64,000 bases of DNA from Tubulanus polymorphus. Its lineage: Eukaryota; Nemertea; Palaeonemertea; Tubulaniformes; Tubulanidae. The position numbers and the translations under genes are program-made. The DNA is taken from contig NC_134026.1 in the NCBI RefSeq assembly GCF_964204645.1, forward strand, positions 21,656,650 through 21,720,649. The letters run 5' to 3'. A model generated the notes under the pieces. The model was not told the origin of the DNA, did not search any database, and was given only the letters and a program-made list of their open reading frames with translations. Below, one piece after another: positions 19,452 to 64,000 of the stretch. The stretch's first letter is position 1. Each line of letters begins with the position of its first letter.

Positions 19452-48058
<28,607 letters not shown>

Positions 48059-56175: not shown

Positions 56176-57542
56176 CATATATTTTATAGTTCAAACCAAT
56201 GCGAGTATGTTCCAAGTTATGGAGGTCAAGCGACTCAATGAAGGCAATTTGAAGATAACCATGTACTGGTAACCTACCAACTGTAGGCTGGACCCATATC
56301 CACTACTAATAACAATAATCAAAGATGAACTGCCTATATAATTCAAGTAGGCGTCTTTATTGCAATAACCAGTTATTACATGTACTATAACATTGGCCAT
56401 AATAATAATGTACAAAATTCTGTAGAATTACTAATCAATACATAAGAAAGCATGGTCCAGATTTTCCATAAATTTGTCGCAGACATTGATTTAGTAAGAA
56501 TTCATGTAAGGGGCCGTGCATCAAGTATGTATGCTATAGGTTTTTAACCCCACGTCCACAGTATGTATGCCTTTAGTACATTTATCTTACTAAAACCCCT
56601 TTTGCAAACATACTTTGTGACCATACACCCTCCCCCCAATAATGATGTTGACAGGCAGTGAATTAATAGGTATTGATACGATGTTCAAAATTTAAAATAG
56701 ATGAATATTTAATCGAAAAATCACTCCTGTGCTGAACATCAAGTCCCCCATATAAAGTAATGCACGTTTTGGCTTGACCCCCCACCTTAACCATGTACAC
56801 TTTTGTACTGATTCACCCACATACTTTCTGTACAGCCCCAAACAGCATACCAGTAGCTATTTTATAATTCTGTGTTGTATGTACAGCAAACATTAAAATT
56901 AATTTATATAAACCCATTATGAATAAAATATCCAGATAACATTTCTTTTTTAAATATTCATGTACATAAATACCAATCAATAAGGCCTTTCACGCGCCGA
57001 AAAAACCAGTCATAATTACACTTATAAAAGTCCTATCTACAATCATTCATTAATTTTGTTTTTGAATGAAGTAATCAACTTTTTCTTCTACTATCAACCG
57101 AAGTTACCTATCACACAAACGCTTAAATATAAAATTGCCATCAAATTCACAATGCCATCAAGATTACTAGTGCCTTTAGGTCAGAGCTCACAAGACCATT
57201 CTGTCTATCTCGAGACGAATATCATTTCAGCCATCAAACTTTTCCCCGAATTTCCGAGGAATCATATGATTAAACCTAACATACGCAATCAAGTCAGTTG
57301 TTCAGAAATCGAGGCGATACCCAGGGTAAGGTAGAATCTACCCTGACGAACTTTGTTTAATTAAAAATCTTACAAAACACAAGCCCAAATATACTGAATC
57401 TTGATACTTTTCATATTCTTCCGTAACATTTGTCAACGTATTATGAGTACTACTCGGATTGAATCGAAATTATTCAACTCATATCACACTTTCCAAATCC
57501 TTTTTCTACCCTTTTAATTGGCGCACATCTACATTGCATATT
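56176..57542. other. Non-coding stretch below the kinesin-5 stop codon
   Basis: Includes the presumed kinesin-5 3' UTR. Open frames at 56191-56415 (-) and 57056-57334 (+) have no recognisable content. No RNA gene or repeat family member is seen. Confidence 0.4.
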
Positions 57543-60500
57543 TCACTGATTTGAACTGCGTAGCGGTAATTTCGAACGCGGGGCACTTTTCGGCGTCGCC
57601 GCATTAGTTTTCTTTTTTGGTGTCCGAGTTGACGAAGCGATTCGAGCTTTTTTCACTGGCGCTACGGTGGCAACCTTCTCTTTCTGGGCGATTTCTATGT
57701 TTTCTTTCGATTCAACATCGGCGAGCTGGAATAATACAAAGATCGGGTTACAAAATTTGCCAATATAAGAGATGGTGATCTTAATGGTAATCATTCCATT
57801 CATTTCAAATGATAAAATCAAATTGTTACCCGTAGATCTTCACAACTGAAGCCAATTGTATCGGCAATAGCAGAATCAGCTGTAGAGTCCTACAAAATCA
57901 TCAAGTACAAACATCAATAGACTGAAATAGTGACATGAAGCATTGCTGCAGGTGCAAAATGACGATTGCCATTTTTCAAGCAGTCAAGAGTTAAAAGCAG
58001 ACTAATACCAGTAAGTATTTACCAGACCAATTGATCAAAAATGATTTAGGCCATTAACAGAGAAGTACATACTTAGTGTCAGTTCCAAGTTGCTTCCAGT
58101 TGACACATTACTTCCAGTTCACTGGGGAAATGTACTAAGTGCCATGGAACTGGTGCCAAGTGTGCCAAATTTCATTAATCAAACAACAAATTTACCTTAG
58201 AAATACTAGCTTCACTAGCTACACTTTCTTCACTCGACGAATTCTGAAGAAGATATAAAGGTAATCATTTTCATCTTTTAAATAATTCCATCGCATGGGT
58301 CAAATTTTACGCACAGGGATCATTCATATTTATTACGTACGCATGAAATTTGACTTTTTCATCCCCCCCCTTCCTGTACGCAAAATTTCCATATACATAA
58401 AGCATAACAGTACGCAATTGCAATGACTCCTCCCCTAATGCGTATTTAATAAATGAATGATCCCAGAATCAAATTGAAATCCAATTCTATCTATTACTAA
58501 CCAGTAAACTATAATCGCTATCCTCTGGTAACGGCACCGTCGTCGCCTGGTTCAGATTCTCCTCTTGCATCATTTTGTGGAATTGACCGAGCAAAATATC
58601 GTGAGGCTGCGTTTTGACGATTCGTTTCGGGTACGGGAACTCGCGTCGAACGGGAGTCGTGCCGGTCGGCACGTCTTTCATCAGTTCCTCCGTGACGAAT
58701 CGCTCCACGTTTGCGCCTTGATATTTCACCGATTGCGACGTTCGCGCGGCGAAATCGCCCGCGCTAGATTCGTGCTCCGCGACAGAGTGCCGCAATTGAT
58801 CGACGTTCTCTTCGTGGTATTCCTGTTGCATGGACATCAGACTGATAATCTCCACCGTTCGACTAGAACTATTCGATGCAAGCTCCTAAAGTGAGAAATA
58901 TTCGAAGTAAGAAATAGAACTCGGGCCGAACTAGGGGTCCAGGGATACATAATGCCTGTTTGTTTACCTGACAATCAGTAGAGAGCTGTTCATTCATTGT
59001 TTCTAATGTCGAGCTGTATTCATTTACTGAAGCTAATAGATCATCCGTATGCCGAGTGCAACTCTGAAATAATCAAAAAAATTTTTCAAAAATTATTTAC
59101 CAGCTCATCTTAATACTGTAAATAATGGCAAATCAAAATTAGGCTAAACAAAAATGATACCTTGTTTCTCCACAGCGGCCGGGTCATTTTTGTAAAATAT
59201 GATAAAATTTATAAACAGTTCATTTCTATAGCGGCCGGGTCTGTTACGGTAAAATTGATCACGATTTTAAAAAAAGTAATGTATAGGGTAGATAGGCGGC
59301 CGGCCGGGTCAACATTTAAGCTCAGCAGAGCGGAGAAACAAGGTATCAATTTTTTTTTAGCCTTATTTAACAAACCTCTTCTTGTTGCTTCAATAGATTT
59401 GACACAGCAGATTCAACTTCACATTTTGACTCTTCTAATTGACTAGTTAATTCTTCAACCTAAAAAACCATACAGATAATCTTATTCATGTAACAATGCA
59501 CTTATATTGTTCTTTCAATCGAATAAAATTTGTCATCCTACTACAGTTCAAGCACTAAATCTACCCTCTGTAACTCTTGAGAAAATATCAAACTTGCAGA
59601 GTTTTTTTTTTCAATTTCAAGACGTAGCGACAATACGATAAAGCTTTTTCATCGAACATTTATTTATTACTAATTCCTGCAATAAGTCTTGGCCAACACG
59701 CGTTGATCACTGTGCATTTTAAAACGTCAAAGCTGGCTGTGATATGGACAATACACAAACTACACAGTCACAGCCAACTTAAACATTTCGAAAATTTGCA
59801 CCACCTCTTTTATGCCTGGAGTCACAGTTTCGTAGATATCAAAATGCGTCAAAGCAGGCTGTGATATGAAATAACACATAACACAAACACAACCATGTTT
59901 AACGTATCAAAATATCCTATTTCTCGAACTTTTTCTGCATCAACCACAGTCTTTAAGTCGTCCATCGTGGGCAGTATTAGTAATCACTGACATCACTTCA
60001 GACGTCTCTATTTTGGAGACCCAATTCGTATTTCCAATATCGAGCGCAGGTTATAATTTTGATCAATTTAACATTATGTTGGTCACAACTACTGAAGTTA
60101 GCTTCACGGCAAACACCATTCTTTATTATTATTATTATCACTTATTTTCCAATCCTGTCATAATAGTCACCGTAAAACGTCAAAGCTGGCTGTGATATGA
60201 TTACACTCAAGTGAAGAGATAATATAGCATACTCACAGTTACCTTTAACGTTTTGAAATGACCAGTTCCTTTATGAAGACGCGCAAGTAGCATTCAAAAG
60301 ACGTCAAAGCTGGCTGTGATATGATATAACCGTACATAATCACAGGTACCTTTAACGCCTCTTAGAAATGCCATCAATTCGTAGGATTCAGACATTCCTC
60401 TAAGACTTTTCATCGTTGAATAGCTTTGTAAATCGTAGCACGTCAAAGCTGGCTGTGATATGACCTGAATTAAACATTGCATACTCACAACCACCTTCAA

Positions 60501-63500
60501 CGCACCACAAAATTACTCTCTAAAAATCCATGTAAAATCTATACAATCACTTTTGCAGCATTCTTACAATTCACTGGTTTTATCTACAGTCCAGACACGG
60601 TCCCTACCGATCAGTCATTCCTGGATATAAGAAGTTTTCAAGGAGAAAATTTCAAATTTTGAGTGTCCATATCACTTAGGTGCCAATTACTGTAGAATCC
60701 TCCTTAATTAGTACTGTTATCTCCGTTAACCGGTTACAAAGTGGTTTTGTAAGCAAATTTGTATCCTTAACACCACTAAACTCAGTTTCTAATTCGGTAA
60801 CTGCTAATGGGATTAAAAAAATTTCTGGTCCGAACTGTACCAAGTTGTTGAGGAATCAAGTTGTAGGAGCCTGCTCGATATCGTGCTAACATTTAACCAA
60901 GCCTAATGATATTAGAGCATATTTTTGATATCGAACATTATCGTTGCGATGGTAGGTAGAACAGAATAATCGCAACACGTCAAAGCAGGCTGTGATATGA
61001 ATAAAGTCTCGACATATTCACAACCAGTTTCAACGCGTCTCGGTTACTATTTCCAATGGCCATGAATTCCAAGAGGAATCGCATTGAACACCGTGTTACA
61101 CCCTAATAAGCTACCTTGGCACGTCAAAGCAGATTGTGATATGGTATGACGAACATATTCACATAATCACAATCAACTTCAACCCGTCAAAATAACCAAA
61201 TCTTCTTTCATGAGAACAGCAATTTCCGACCATAAACTTAATTCATTATCCCGGAAACACTAATAAGTCATAATAACGCGGCATCGAATGCTATTTCAGT
61301 CGACGAAAGTGAAGAAAAGCTTAGAGCATAAAATAGAAACATACCTTCTTTATGTGCGATTGTGTTACCGACTGGTCAATTTGTGATTGCTTTTCATACG
61401 TGCACCTCGCTATGGCAGGATCTTCGTGTACAGTTTTCAATGAACTGAAATTAAGCGGAAGACAAACGTGTTGATTGATTTTCGTTACCACTTGCTTCGT
61501 TCTCAACCACCGAAAAAATGTGCATTTTTAGAAATATTGAAAGAAAACATACCATAAAGTTAACTCTTCCATGTCAGTGACCAACTTTCTCGTTTGTTCG
61601 ACATTCTCGGTGAGCTGTTACACAAGAAGAAATGACATTATCATAAATGGCTATTCAGAAAGTCTAAACAGTTAACAGCAGGACCCAGTTCCACAGCCAT
61701 GAGTTGAGAGTCAACTCTGAGCTCCTTTTCAAATGTTCCACTTATATTTATTTGACTTGCTCTTCCCCCGTCTCTCCTCTGAGATGCAGGTAAGTGGCTA
61801 CCCACTTAAGACTCACCCACCACAACTGTGAACTCAATCATTCAATTAACTTACACCTGCATGTCCTTGCTTTAGATGATTTTGTTGTTCACAAACCATA
61901 TTGTCCAGTAAATCGCTTATTTCCGACATGACTTTCTTTTTAATATTTTGTGCTAGTTCATTATGCGAAGATGTCAATTGCGATGTGAGTTGATTTTGAC
62001 GGTCGAAGCTCTGATTGGACTGCTGTATGTAACTGACAACATGCGATTGTAACGAATCGACTTTTTGCTGTTGGGTTTGTACGAAATTCCTGAGAAAGCT
62101 TTCTTGTCGAGCCATCTGAAAATCATCAAAAATTTCATATTCTAGTTTTTAGTGCCTATTCAGACCTATTCAAGCACGAAAGCTTTTATAGAATTTTAAG
62201 AAAAATCAAATATGTTGATACAAAATGTAGAATGCTGTTATATTACACCTACCTGTTCTTTCACCATTGCACTGAGGTCCTGTAAAGCCTGGTGTTGTCC
62301 ATCAAATCGTCCTTGAATAGTATCCATCAGAGGTTGATAAAGTGTTTGTCTAAAATTGCCCAAATGCGATATCTGACCAGACTAAGAACAAAAAAATAAA
62401 ATTAAAAAAATATTTCATGTTAGAATAAAATTTTTCTATAAAGCATCAGTACGAAATACTTTTCCAAGATTTTACCTGCCGTTGTTGTATTTTATGCGAT
62501 AGACTTTCAGTTGTCTGTTGAAGATTCTGTGAATAGCTTTTGTGATGATTTTGTACGAGATCTTTATGTTGATGAACAGCAATTAGAAGAGTTGACGTAG
62601 CCTCGGATAACGCTTTCATTTCGTCCCTTCGTTCTTGGATACTTGAATCTACATTGCACGAAACCAACCGAGTTGAGAAGTAACAATTGAGATTATGTTT
62701 TTAACCGGGGTCCCTATAGATCAATCACTCCCCCGATACATGTTTCAAAGGAGAAAAATTTCAAGGAAGCGCGGAACGCGAGTACATCAGTGCCTAATTT
62801 CATAAGCAAATTTCCATGCTGGACACTACTAAACTTGGTTTCTACTTCGGAAGCCACCTAATAAGGTATCAAAAAGATCCTGGTTCCAACTGAACTGAAT
62901 TAGGCAAAGTCCAGTGCACAACCACTTCTAAAGTATCTAGTTGCTTATTTCTCAAAATTGAAGGAGTTTTTTTAAAGGAGTTTCTGGCATTTTGCTCAAA
63001 TTAGGACTTTCCACCACCTTCAAAAGCATTTTCTGTTTAAAAGCAGTTTTCAAGGAATCGTATCAAGGAGTCATCTCATAGGGACTGTGAGAAATCATCG
63101 AAAACTGTCACTGGTTATAAACATTCAAAAATTTCAAATGAGCTACAACAAGGTCTATGCAGGAGTGAATGATTTTTACCTAACATGTGCTGCATCGTCC
63201 GACACCAGTCAGTCTGAGATGAGCTGAACGACTGCAGATCCGCATCGATGGTACCGATATCGCTCGTGAACTTCGATAGAAACCGCGTCTGACACGATTC
63301 ATTTTGCGTCTCGACGCTGCGAAACCGGTCGAGTTTAGCGTGAAGACCGATCACATCGGTCGTCGACTCATCGACCGTTTGTAATAACTGCGACAAAAAA
63401 AAAAGAAACACGTTTACACTAACGTTGATACCGGGATTAATCAAAATACTATAAGAATGATCGTAGATAATAAAGAGGGGGTAATCGCACGGAAAAATCC

Positions 63501-64000
63501 TATCTATCCAGTGCAAATCTAGCGAGAGACTTTTCTTCAGGGCTGCTAACCTTTGAAAAGTTCTATCAGTTACAACTGAATTTTTTTAATTGAAATAAAT
63601 ATGTCAGAGAAGATCAAATCAATCAGTATCAATATTAAAGCTCTCAGTAAAATCTTTCATATTTCTATATGCATCAAACAAATCAAATCAGCATTTCTCG
63701 ATCTTACTACATAATTCAAATTCTGGTAGGCCTACTTGAATTCTAATTCTAATTCTAATTGGGAATACACATATGACATTGGGCCAGCGTTGAATATAAT
63801 CACCTCATTAGCTTGTGAATAAAGTGTCTTCTCGGTTTTCACGTGTTCGTTGACGAGATGTTTTTGAGCGTTGCGTTCGTAAATCGTCGTTTGCAGTTTC
63901 GTTTTCGTTTTGTCGAGCGTTTTCGTCGTCTGTTCCAAATTCACAGTCGTCGTGTGCAGCTGTTCGGTCATTTCGTCCAATTCCGCTTTCGTTATATTGA
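57543..64000 (-). CDS. KIF11: Kinesin-5 (KIF11/Eg5), 3' part: stalk, BimC box and tail; runs off the window
   Basis: Exons in transcript order: 63804-beyond 64000, 63180-63387, 62476-62648, 62253-62381, 61855-62115, 61553-61614, 61345-61444, 59376-59459, 58968-59063, 58502-58885, 58196-58243, 57830-57889, 57543-57725. All junctions are GT-AG and phases agree, giving about 660 residues. Kinesin-5 is the homotetrameric plus-end motor that separates spindle poles. The motor head lies off the window. The stalk is Gln/Ser/Lys-rich coiled coil; TTDVIGLHAKLDR matches vertebrate TTKDVSGLHSKLDR. The BimC box (58621-58680) reads VPTGTTPVRREFPYPKR with the CDK1 target Thr before Pro, as in vertebrate PTGTTPQR. 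The C-terminus is basic and ends SKLPLRSSNQ, comparable to vertebrate SRLPLRAQ. Intron 59460-61344 hosts the miR-2 array. Confidence 0.95.
59141..59363. mobile_element. Inverted-end element with GCGGCCGGGTC repeats inside
   Basis: AGGCTAAACAAAAATGATAC and CTTGTTTCTCC at the left are mirrored by GGAGAAACAAGGTATCAA and TAGCCT at the right. Inside, GCGGCCGGGTC occurs three times (near 59176, 59232, 59299), strikingly GC-rich in an AT-rich intron. It lies 13 bp below the kinesin-5 exon at 59376. Confidence 0.75.
59722..59788 (-). ncRNA. mir-2: miR-2 family hairpin, copy 1 (last in transcript order)
   Basis: On the minus strand a 5' arm (TTTAAGTTGGCTGTGACTG) folds onto a 3' arm. The predicted 3p product occupies 59723-59744 and starts UAUCACAGCCAGCUUUGACG, with the miR-2 seed AUCACAG. 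It lies in the sense orientation in kinesin-5 intron 59460-61344. Confidence 0.88.
59845..59906 (-). ncRNA. mir-2: miR-2 family hairpin, copy 2
   Basis: Predicted 3p product at 59845-59866: UAUCACAGCCUGCUUUGACG, the A-to-U variant at position 11 also seen in copy 6. The 5' arm AACATGGTTGTGTTTGTG pairs with it, with wobbles. Confidence 0.85.
60040..60105 (-). ncRNA. Possible decayed miR-2 hairpin between copies 2 and 3
   Basis: The minus strand reads CTTCAGTAGTTGTGACC, like the 5' arms of the array, followed after a loop by TTATAACCTGCGCTCGAT in place of TATCACAGCCTGCTTTGAC. It sits where the array spacing predicts another unit. The seed is destroyed, so it would be a pseudo-miRNA. Confidence 0.35.
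60176..60252 (-). ncRNA. mir-2: miR-2 family hairpin, copy 3
   Basis: Predicted 3p product at 60176-60197: UAUCACAGCCAGCUUUGACG. The 5' arm is AACGTTAAAGGTAACTGTGA. The loop is about 12 nt longer than in other copies. Confidence 0.88.
60299..60359 (-). ncRNA. mir-2: miR-2 family hairpin, copy 4
   Basis: Predicted 3p product at 60300-60321: UAUCACAGCCAGCUUUGACG. The 5' arm is GCGTTAAAGGTACCTGTGAT. Confidence 0.9.
60438..60504 (-). ncRNA. mir-2: miR-2 family hairpin, copy 5
   Basis: Predicted 3p product at 60439-60460: UAUCACAGCCAGCUUUGACG. The 5' arm GCGTTGAAGGTGGTTGTGAG pairs over about 20 positions with a few mismatches and one G-U in the seed-proximal stem. Confidence 0.92.
60590..60890 (+). 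repeat. Dispersed repeat inserted within the miR-2 array
   Basis: Shares GGTCCCTA..GATCA, AAGGAGAAAA, TAAGCAAATTT, ACACCACTAAACT..GTTTCTA and TGGTCC/GGTTCCAACTG words with 62705-62930 in another kinesin-5 intron. It accounts for the abnormal gap between hairpins 5 and 6. Confidence 0.65.
60974..61040 (-). ncRNA. mir-2: miR-2 family hairpin, copy 6
   Basis: Predicted 3p product at 60976-60997: UAUCACAGCCUGCUUUGACG. The 5' arm is GCGTTGAAACTGGTTGTGAA. Confidence 0.9.
61118..61189 (-). ncRNA. mir-2: miR-2 family hairpin, copy 7 (first in transcript order, altered seed)
   Basis: Predicted 3p product at 61120-61141: UAUCACAAUCUGCUUUGACG, seed AUCACAA. The 5' arm GGTTGAAGTTGATTGTGATT has changed in step: GATTGTGA pairs perfectly with TCACAATC. 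Closest hairpin to the upstream kinesin-5 exon (156 bp). Confidence 0.88.
62705..62930 (+). repeat. Dispersed repeat, second copy
   Basis: Contains GGGGTCCCTATAGATCAATC, AAAGGAGAAAAATTTCAAGG, CATAAGCAAATTTCC and ACACTACTAAACTTGGTTTC, in the same order as 60590-60890. It lies in the kinesin-5 intron between exons 63180 and 62648. Confidence 0.65.

Follow-up and report, generated by a model that had tools for sequence, protein, structure and literature searches.

Seven putative mir-2-family hairpins in sense orientation within an intron of kinesin-5 in the ribbon worm Tubulanus polymorphus

The stretch of DNA analysed here (hereafter the window) comprises 64,000 nucleotides of the genome of Tubulanus polymorphus (NC_134026.1, positions 21,656,650 to 21,720,649), a palaeonemertean ribbon worm and thus a member of Spiralia and Protostomia. 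One intron of its kinesin-5 (KIF11) gene holds seven hairpins that very probably constitute a genuine miR-2-family microRNA array, lying in sense orientation and transcribed together with the host. miR-2 is a large protostome microRNA family, and to our knowledge the purpose of its expansions is not settled.

The hairpins and their host intron

All seven hairpins match the mir-2 family of Rfam (RF00047) on the minus strand between positions 59718 and 61189 of the window, the covariance model being aligned over its full length (1-72 of 72) in each, with E-values from 7.6e-9 to 1.2e-3. The 20-nucleotide seed arm TATCACAGCCAGCTTTGACG is present without mismatch in four copies, with one mismatch in two and with three in the remaining one, against a chance expectation of 0.00 (0 of 100 shuffles), and this conserved arm forms the 3' side of a stable imperfect hairpin in every copy. 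Folding was compared with that of dinucleotide shuffles, giving z scores of -2.9 to -6.9 across the array; for six copies none of 200 shuffles folded as well, and for the seventh 1 of 200 did. Thus, the seven miR-2-family hairpins that an earlier note had picked out from the sequence are present, although their length by Rfam is 68-85 nucleotides rather than the roughly 65 given there, and the seed AUCACAG (nucleotides 2-8 of the 3' arm) holds for six of them, the copy at 61115-61189 reading AUCACAA with position 8 altered. Three copies exceed the RF00047 gathering score of 45.5 bits; the other four fall under it (44.5, 42.0, 39.1 and 35.2 bits), a point that tells against taking the whole array as genuine.

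Each hairpin is supported by both its Rfam match and its fold, and each contains a 22-nucleotide seed arm on the minus strand; the last bases of these arms (GACGUG, GACGUC, GACGUU, GACGCA) tell some of the copies apart. Numbered from the 5' splice site, they are hairpin 1 (61115-61189, seed arm 61141-61120), which is the AUCACAA variant, hairpin 2 (60971-61040, seed arm 60997-60976), hairpin 3 (60434-60507, seed arm 60460-60439), hairpin 4 (60295-60362, seed arm 60321-60300), hairpin 5 (60171-60255, seed arm 60197-60176), the longest, hairpin 6 (59840-59909, seed arm 59866-59845), which has the weakest fold, and hairpin 7 (59718-59790, seed arm 59744-59723), closest to the 3' splice site. Their start-to-start spacings are 122, 331, 124, 139, 537 and 144 nucleotides. 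One hairpin also gave a plus-strand match to mir-2 (26.2 bits, versus 39.1 on the minus strand), because near-palindromic hairpins can be read both ways. When the intron was scanned for folding in 80-nucleotide windows, eight windows had z scores below -2.5; seven of these cover mir-2 hairpins, namely all except hairpin 5, which the scan missed, and the eighth is located at 60944-60865.

The identification of the host as kinesin-5 in the earlier note was borne out: the motor gives 553 bits with solved chains of KIF11 versus 294 bits for KIF3B, the best non-kinesin-5 chain among the best 60 matches, and the protein contains both a kinesin motor domain (PF00225) and a kinesin-5 tail domain (PF13931). 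Beyond itself, its best relative is that of the nemertean Lineus longissimus (1035 bits, versus 892 for the next). The gene is intact on the minus strand, with coding sequence running from window coordinate 68228, past the end of the window, to 57543 (in-window part, 57543-64000). The public annotated protein (P0001) has 1,093 amino acids encoded by 23 exons, which were mapped by exact matching, and its junction SHIKK/VEEL spans the array. An additional exon in the gene model at 62857-62758 was rejected, being absent from the public protein.

The array lies between exon 17 (61345-61444, minus strand, ending in SHIKK) and exon 18 (59376-59459, minus strand, beginning with VEELTSQ), in intron 17 (59460-61344, minus strand, phase 0, GT...AG), the boundaries of which follow from the splice sites, the open frame across the junction and the same junction in the public protein. 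At 1,885 nucleotides, intron 17 is the longest of the 22 kinesin-5 introns, the next being 955 nucleotides. Hairpins and host are both on the minus strand and all seven copies fall within 61344-59460, in agreement with the sense orientation and single intron claimed earlier; the array is therefore sense-intronic. Hairpin 1 begins 155 nucleotides past the 5' splice site, and 258 nucleotides separate hairpin 7 from exon 18; hairpins ending at least this far from both splice sites are not mirtrons.

Other mir-2 loci and proposed expression of the array

At least 14 mir-2 hairpins were detected genome-wide: the seven of kinesin-5, six on C3 in PPP4R1 and one on C4 in the gene for DNA ligase 1 (LIG1). 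The genome-wide Rfam scan (E up to 10) gave 21 matches, from which six antisense readings of counted hairpins were removed, together with an isolated match at C10:3670714 (24.6 bits, E 2.6) that was set aside as chance. The count is a lower bound, since scoring covered 60 of the 59,540 first-look candidates. Half of the hairpins (7 of 14) exceed the gathering score, and the weakest retained (C3:4555356) has 29.7 bits; of 14 prokaryote genomes searched as controls at the same lax E-value, 8 also give matches, none of them above the cut-off.

All 14 detected hairpins are sense-intronic, and they are distributed over only three genes. The PPP4R1 cluster (C3:4553143-4556695, minus strand) consists of mir-71 at its upstream end and six mir-2 hairpins, in sense orientation within the intron 4556773-4552826, and the LIG1 hairpin (C4:25613847-25613915) is in sense orientation within intron 3 (25614107-25613594). 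Kinesin-5 is a mitotic motor, and kinesin-5 and DNA ligase 1 act in M phase and S phase, respectively. These two S/M-phase genes together hold 8 of the 14 hairpins, a grouping that was noticed post hoc and among three loci. By the criterion of a mir-71/mir-2 cluster the kinesin-5 array falls outside that class, having no mir-71, which is located on C3; in the 64-kb window no mir-71 word was found at up to three mismatches and no mir-71 match in Rfam at E up to 1.

Long ago, a mir-2 hairpin would have been copied into this kinesin-5 intron, where it would then have multiplied. The hairpins would be transcribed with the kinesin-5 pre-mRNA and cropped from the intron by Drosha, and the 3' arm would mature as a UAUCACAG-type miR-2; for co-transcription, cropping and the choice of arm we infer this from established microRNA biology. 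Each kinesin-5 pre-mRNA would provide dividing cells with as many as seven miR-2 copies, supplementing the supply from PPP4R1, and mRNAs bearing UGUGAU sites would be repressed. Because kinesin-5 is a mitotic motor, the highest miR-2 output is expected in dividing cells; co-transcription with the host, cropping by Drosha and a pulse of miR-2 in proliferating cells are the most likely course of events. The targets of fly miR-2 with UGUGAU sites include cell-death genes, and by analogy those in Tubulanus may do so too.

Two TGTGATA words follow the kinesin-5 gene on the minus strand: a possible 7mer-A1 miR-2 site at 57482-57488, 55 nucleotides past the stop codon, and a second possible site at 57109-57115, 428 nucleotides past it, which may lie beyond the 3' untranslated region. 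Such sites would possibly add feedback on the host, though UGUGAUA is expected about 0.1 times per kb per strand and the two words were noticed after the fact. No UGUGAUA was found within 1,500 nucleotides past the last mapped codon of LIG1 or of PPP4R1; PPP4R1 has one CUGUGAU in this interval, at 845 nucleotides.

An E2F-type motif (TTTSSCGC) is absent from the 800 nucleotides upstream of the kinesin-5 start codon, which runs counter to a simple shared E2F model. The same interval of PPP4R1, the annotated start of which may not be the true one, also has no TTTSSCGC, and LIG1 has an E2F-type site immediately before its start codon. The missing motif upstream of kinesin-5, along with work in elegans (PMC2835999, as far as the available part of that source goes), counts in favour of real mir-2 genes with a separate promoter, located within the intron or upstream of it, and with an output independent of kinesin-5. 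We consider such a promoter unlikely, given that the short distance between the 5' splice site and hairpin 1 leaves little room for one within the intron, that the array is sense to its host, and that three of the three detected mir-2 loci are sense-intronic.

Maintenance and origin of the array

The 22-nucleotide seed arm has a mean identity of 90% across the seven copies, whereas the segment 31-60 nucleotides from its start (the 30 nucleotides directly following the hairpin) has 26%, the same as random sequence, in an ungapped comparison of the 3' side only. On this evidence the array is old and maintained, since the arm has been kept while the adjoining flank has become random; a recent satellite would be expected to have similar flanks, and a dead array to have lost its arms. 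The predicted helix is paired at 93.5% in register, compared with 34-51% after a slide of one to three columns. Changes in both partners of a pair are seen in 8 cells, versus a mean of 3.0 in shuffles (a value attained by 2 of 500), and covariation scores 0.228 versus 0.153 (0 of 500 as high); in the seed-variant copy (61115-61189) there are matching changes on the opposite arm. Thus, the microRNA-type pattern of conservation noted earlier was recovered in both the arms and the pairing. Two of the five pairing measures are less favourable, being unremarkable against shuffles: pairs with change on both sides number 4 versus 2.4 (80 of 500 as high) and further pair types 14 versus 11.4 (39 of 500), and the structure used for all of these measures was derived from the same seven sequences.

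The altered position 8 in one seed and the four copies below the Rfam cut-off would fit a tandem array of one-time microRNA hairpins that are decaying or have no function. That interpretation is very improbable, because neutral copies would not hold their arms and their pairing: the flank is saturated with changes, in contrast to the seed arm, and double changes preserve pairing even in the seed-variant copy.

The dispersal of the seed arm through the genome was also checked. With up to two mismatches, the mir-2 20-mer is found in 12 genome places, comprising six in this intron, four in PPP4R1, one in LIG1 and one in which the seed is broken; the reversed control is found in none. By comparison, a repeat word of the same gene, CTGGACCCAGTTCCACAG, has 14,738 places at up to two mismatches (14 for the reversed control), one of them an exact match within kinesin-5 intron 9 (L019, about 2463-2480), and a word from an inverted repeat in kinesin-5 intron 18 (59146-59357) has 2,887 (2 for the control). 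A satellite, a miniature inverted-repeat transposable element (MITE) or another dispersed hairpin repeat that merely resembles mir-2 can be dismissed for practical purposes, even though MITE-like repeats do occur in the kinesin-5 gene, since 11 of the 12 places of the mir-2 word lie in three loci and this low genome copy number is far from those of the repeat words. The array is thus not a transposon, as the earlier note had held, its arm word being present in a dozen places and not hundreds.

Several repeat sequences were encountered in passing. The inverted repeat at 59146-59357 has arms of 26 nucleotides and is MITE-like. Positions 61679-61696, in kinesin-5 intron 15, contain the CTGGACCCAGTTCCACAG word with one mismatch by eye, and a sequence resembling CTGGACCCAGTTCCACAG at L049 294-418 gives sub-threshold matches to plant MIR families in Rfam. 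Three further matches to plant MIR families (39369-39503, 42495-42636 and 25852-25977) are likewise under the gathering score and were rejected; they may be inverted repeats.

As for its origin, the array looks like the product of one captured founder copy, presumably from PPP4R1, that multiplied in place, which is the best fit to the sequences. In a tree of the 14 hairpins, a branch with support of 75/98, present in 74% of bootstrap trees, separates the seven kinesin-5 copies from the others. Compared with the Rfam consensus, all seven also have one extra base in the 5' arm, an insertion absent from the LIG1 copy and from five of the six PPP4R1 copies. Certain features of the data detract from this interpretation. 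The tree is based on 80 columns, and strong support is lacking for all 11 of its inner branches; a MAFFT alignment of these hairpins placed the 5' arms of the two groups out of register, a shift that may in itself contribute to their separation; and the insertion is also present in the PPP4R1 copy at C3:4555356-4555422, so that it is not by itself proof of a single founder. Kinesin-5 copy 2 and one PPP4R1 copy (C3:4553624-4553693) have seed arms that are identical over 22 nucleotides.

Comparison with known clusters and meaning of the array

The kinesin-5 array resembles the protostome mir-71/mir-2 cluster, represented here in PPP4R1, in its family, its conserved 3' arm and its several hairpins on one strand, but it differs in having no mir-71 and another host gene. 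Its copies are also farther apart, at 122-537 nucleotides start to start and about 100-515 nucleotides between arms, whereas mature miR-2s of flatworms are reported to be 71-101 nucleotides apart in the available part of PMC4405270. The same portion of that source describes two mir-71/mir-2 clusters in trematodes and five in the planarian S. mediterranea, and does not mention a KIF11 or LIG1 host for them. Flatworms are thus spiralians that, like Tubulanus, have multiple mir-2 loci, but those loci are described there with mir-71, unlike the kinesin-5 array. According to the accessible text of PMC3763532, mir-2 arose within the mir-71 transcript and later expanded, and mir-71 was lost in several lineages including Drosophila. 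In comparison with the Drosophila clusters mir-13b-1/13a/2c and mir-2a-2/2a-1/2b-2, Tubulanus retains the mir-71 cluster elsewhere in its genome, and the kinesin-5 array is additional to it.

LIG1 may host further microRNAs. Intron 6 of this gene (25612706-25611754) has three hairpins on the minus strand (C4:25612577, 25612436 and 25612315), the 3' arms of which begin with UAGCACCA, the mir-29 seed, and which fold with z scores of -3.7, -5.3 and -5.3 (0 of 300 shuffles as good). Only the middle hairpin matches mir-29 in Rfam, at 27.3 bits versus a cut-off of 46.7, and none of the three is among the matches of the genome-wide Rfam mir-29 scan; for these reasons they are considered candidates with a mir-29 seed and not certified members of the family. 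The mir-29 hairpins of C3, with arms UAGCACCAUUUGAAAUCAG and a close variant, are at 26638064-26638134 (62.1 bits) and 26638250-26638327 (46.4 bits, just below the cut-off), both on the minus strand. On the opposite strand of the large intron 7 of LIG1 (C4:25609050-25610423, plus strand), there are open reading frames with collagen-like repeats, possibly a nested gene.

The seed of mir-11 resembles that of miR-2. In the fly, the last intron of dE2f1 hosts mir-998, which has a mir-29 seed, and mir-11, which acts as a repressor of cell-death genes under the control of dE2F1, according to the part of PMC4109884 that was available. The likeness to Tubulanus consists in intronic microRNAs of a proliferation gene, the LIG1 introns holding one mir-2 hairpin and three hairpins with a mir-29 seed. 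The differences are that the Tubulanus hosts are kinesin-5 and DNA ligase 1, that the microRNA is mir-2 itself and not mir-11, and that the Tubulanus case is described at the level of sequence.

In the openly licensed literature no paper joining miR-2, KIF11 and intronic location was found, and mir-2 in KIF11 is not described in the best-ranked titles and abstract beginnings returned by looser searches; nor does a microRNA or genome paper naming Tubulanus polymorphus appear among the best-ranked matches. The hairpins may already be catalogued, for instance in MirGeneDB. The microRNA family is known, and what appears to be new is the kinesin-5 host and the parallel with DNA ligase 1, which were not found in the literature searched, no search having been aimed at DNA ligase 1.

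The kinesin-5 array, lying outside the PPP4R1 cluster, shows that mir-2 has spread to new loci without mir-71. With half of the detected mir-2 hairpins (7 of 14) in the gene of a mitotic motor, miR-2 is predicted to peak in dividing or regenerating cells of Tubulanus. We suggest, tentatively, that miR-2 may have been captured repeatedly by division genes (kinesin-5 and DNA ligase 1), which would wire its output to S and M phase; such capture would parallel the dE2f1 intron of the fly, where mir-11 and mir-998 bring together the same two kinds of seed. The array would then be a spiralian counterpart to the fly intronic microRNAs that moderate how strongly a cell-cycle gene promotes cell death, and, if this is true, a circuit linking proliferation to protection from cell death would have evolved repeatedly in protostomes, or persisted in them across changes of host gene.

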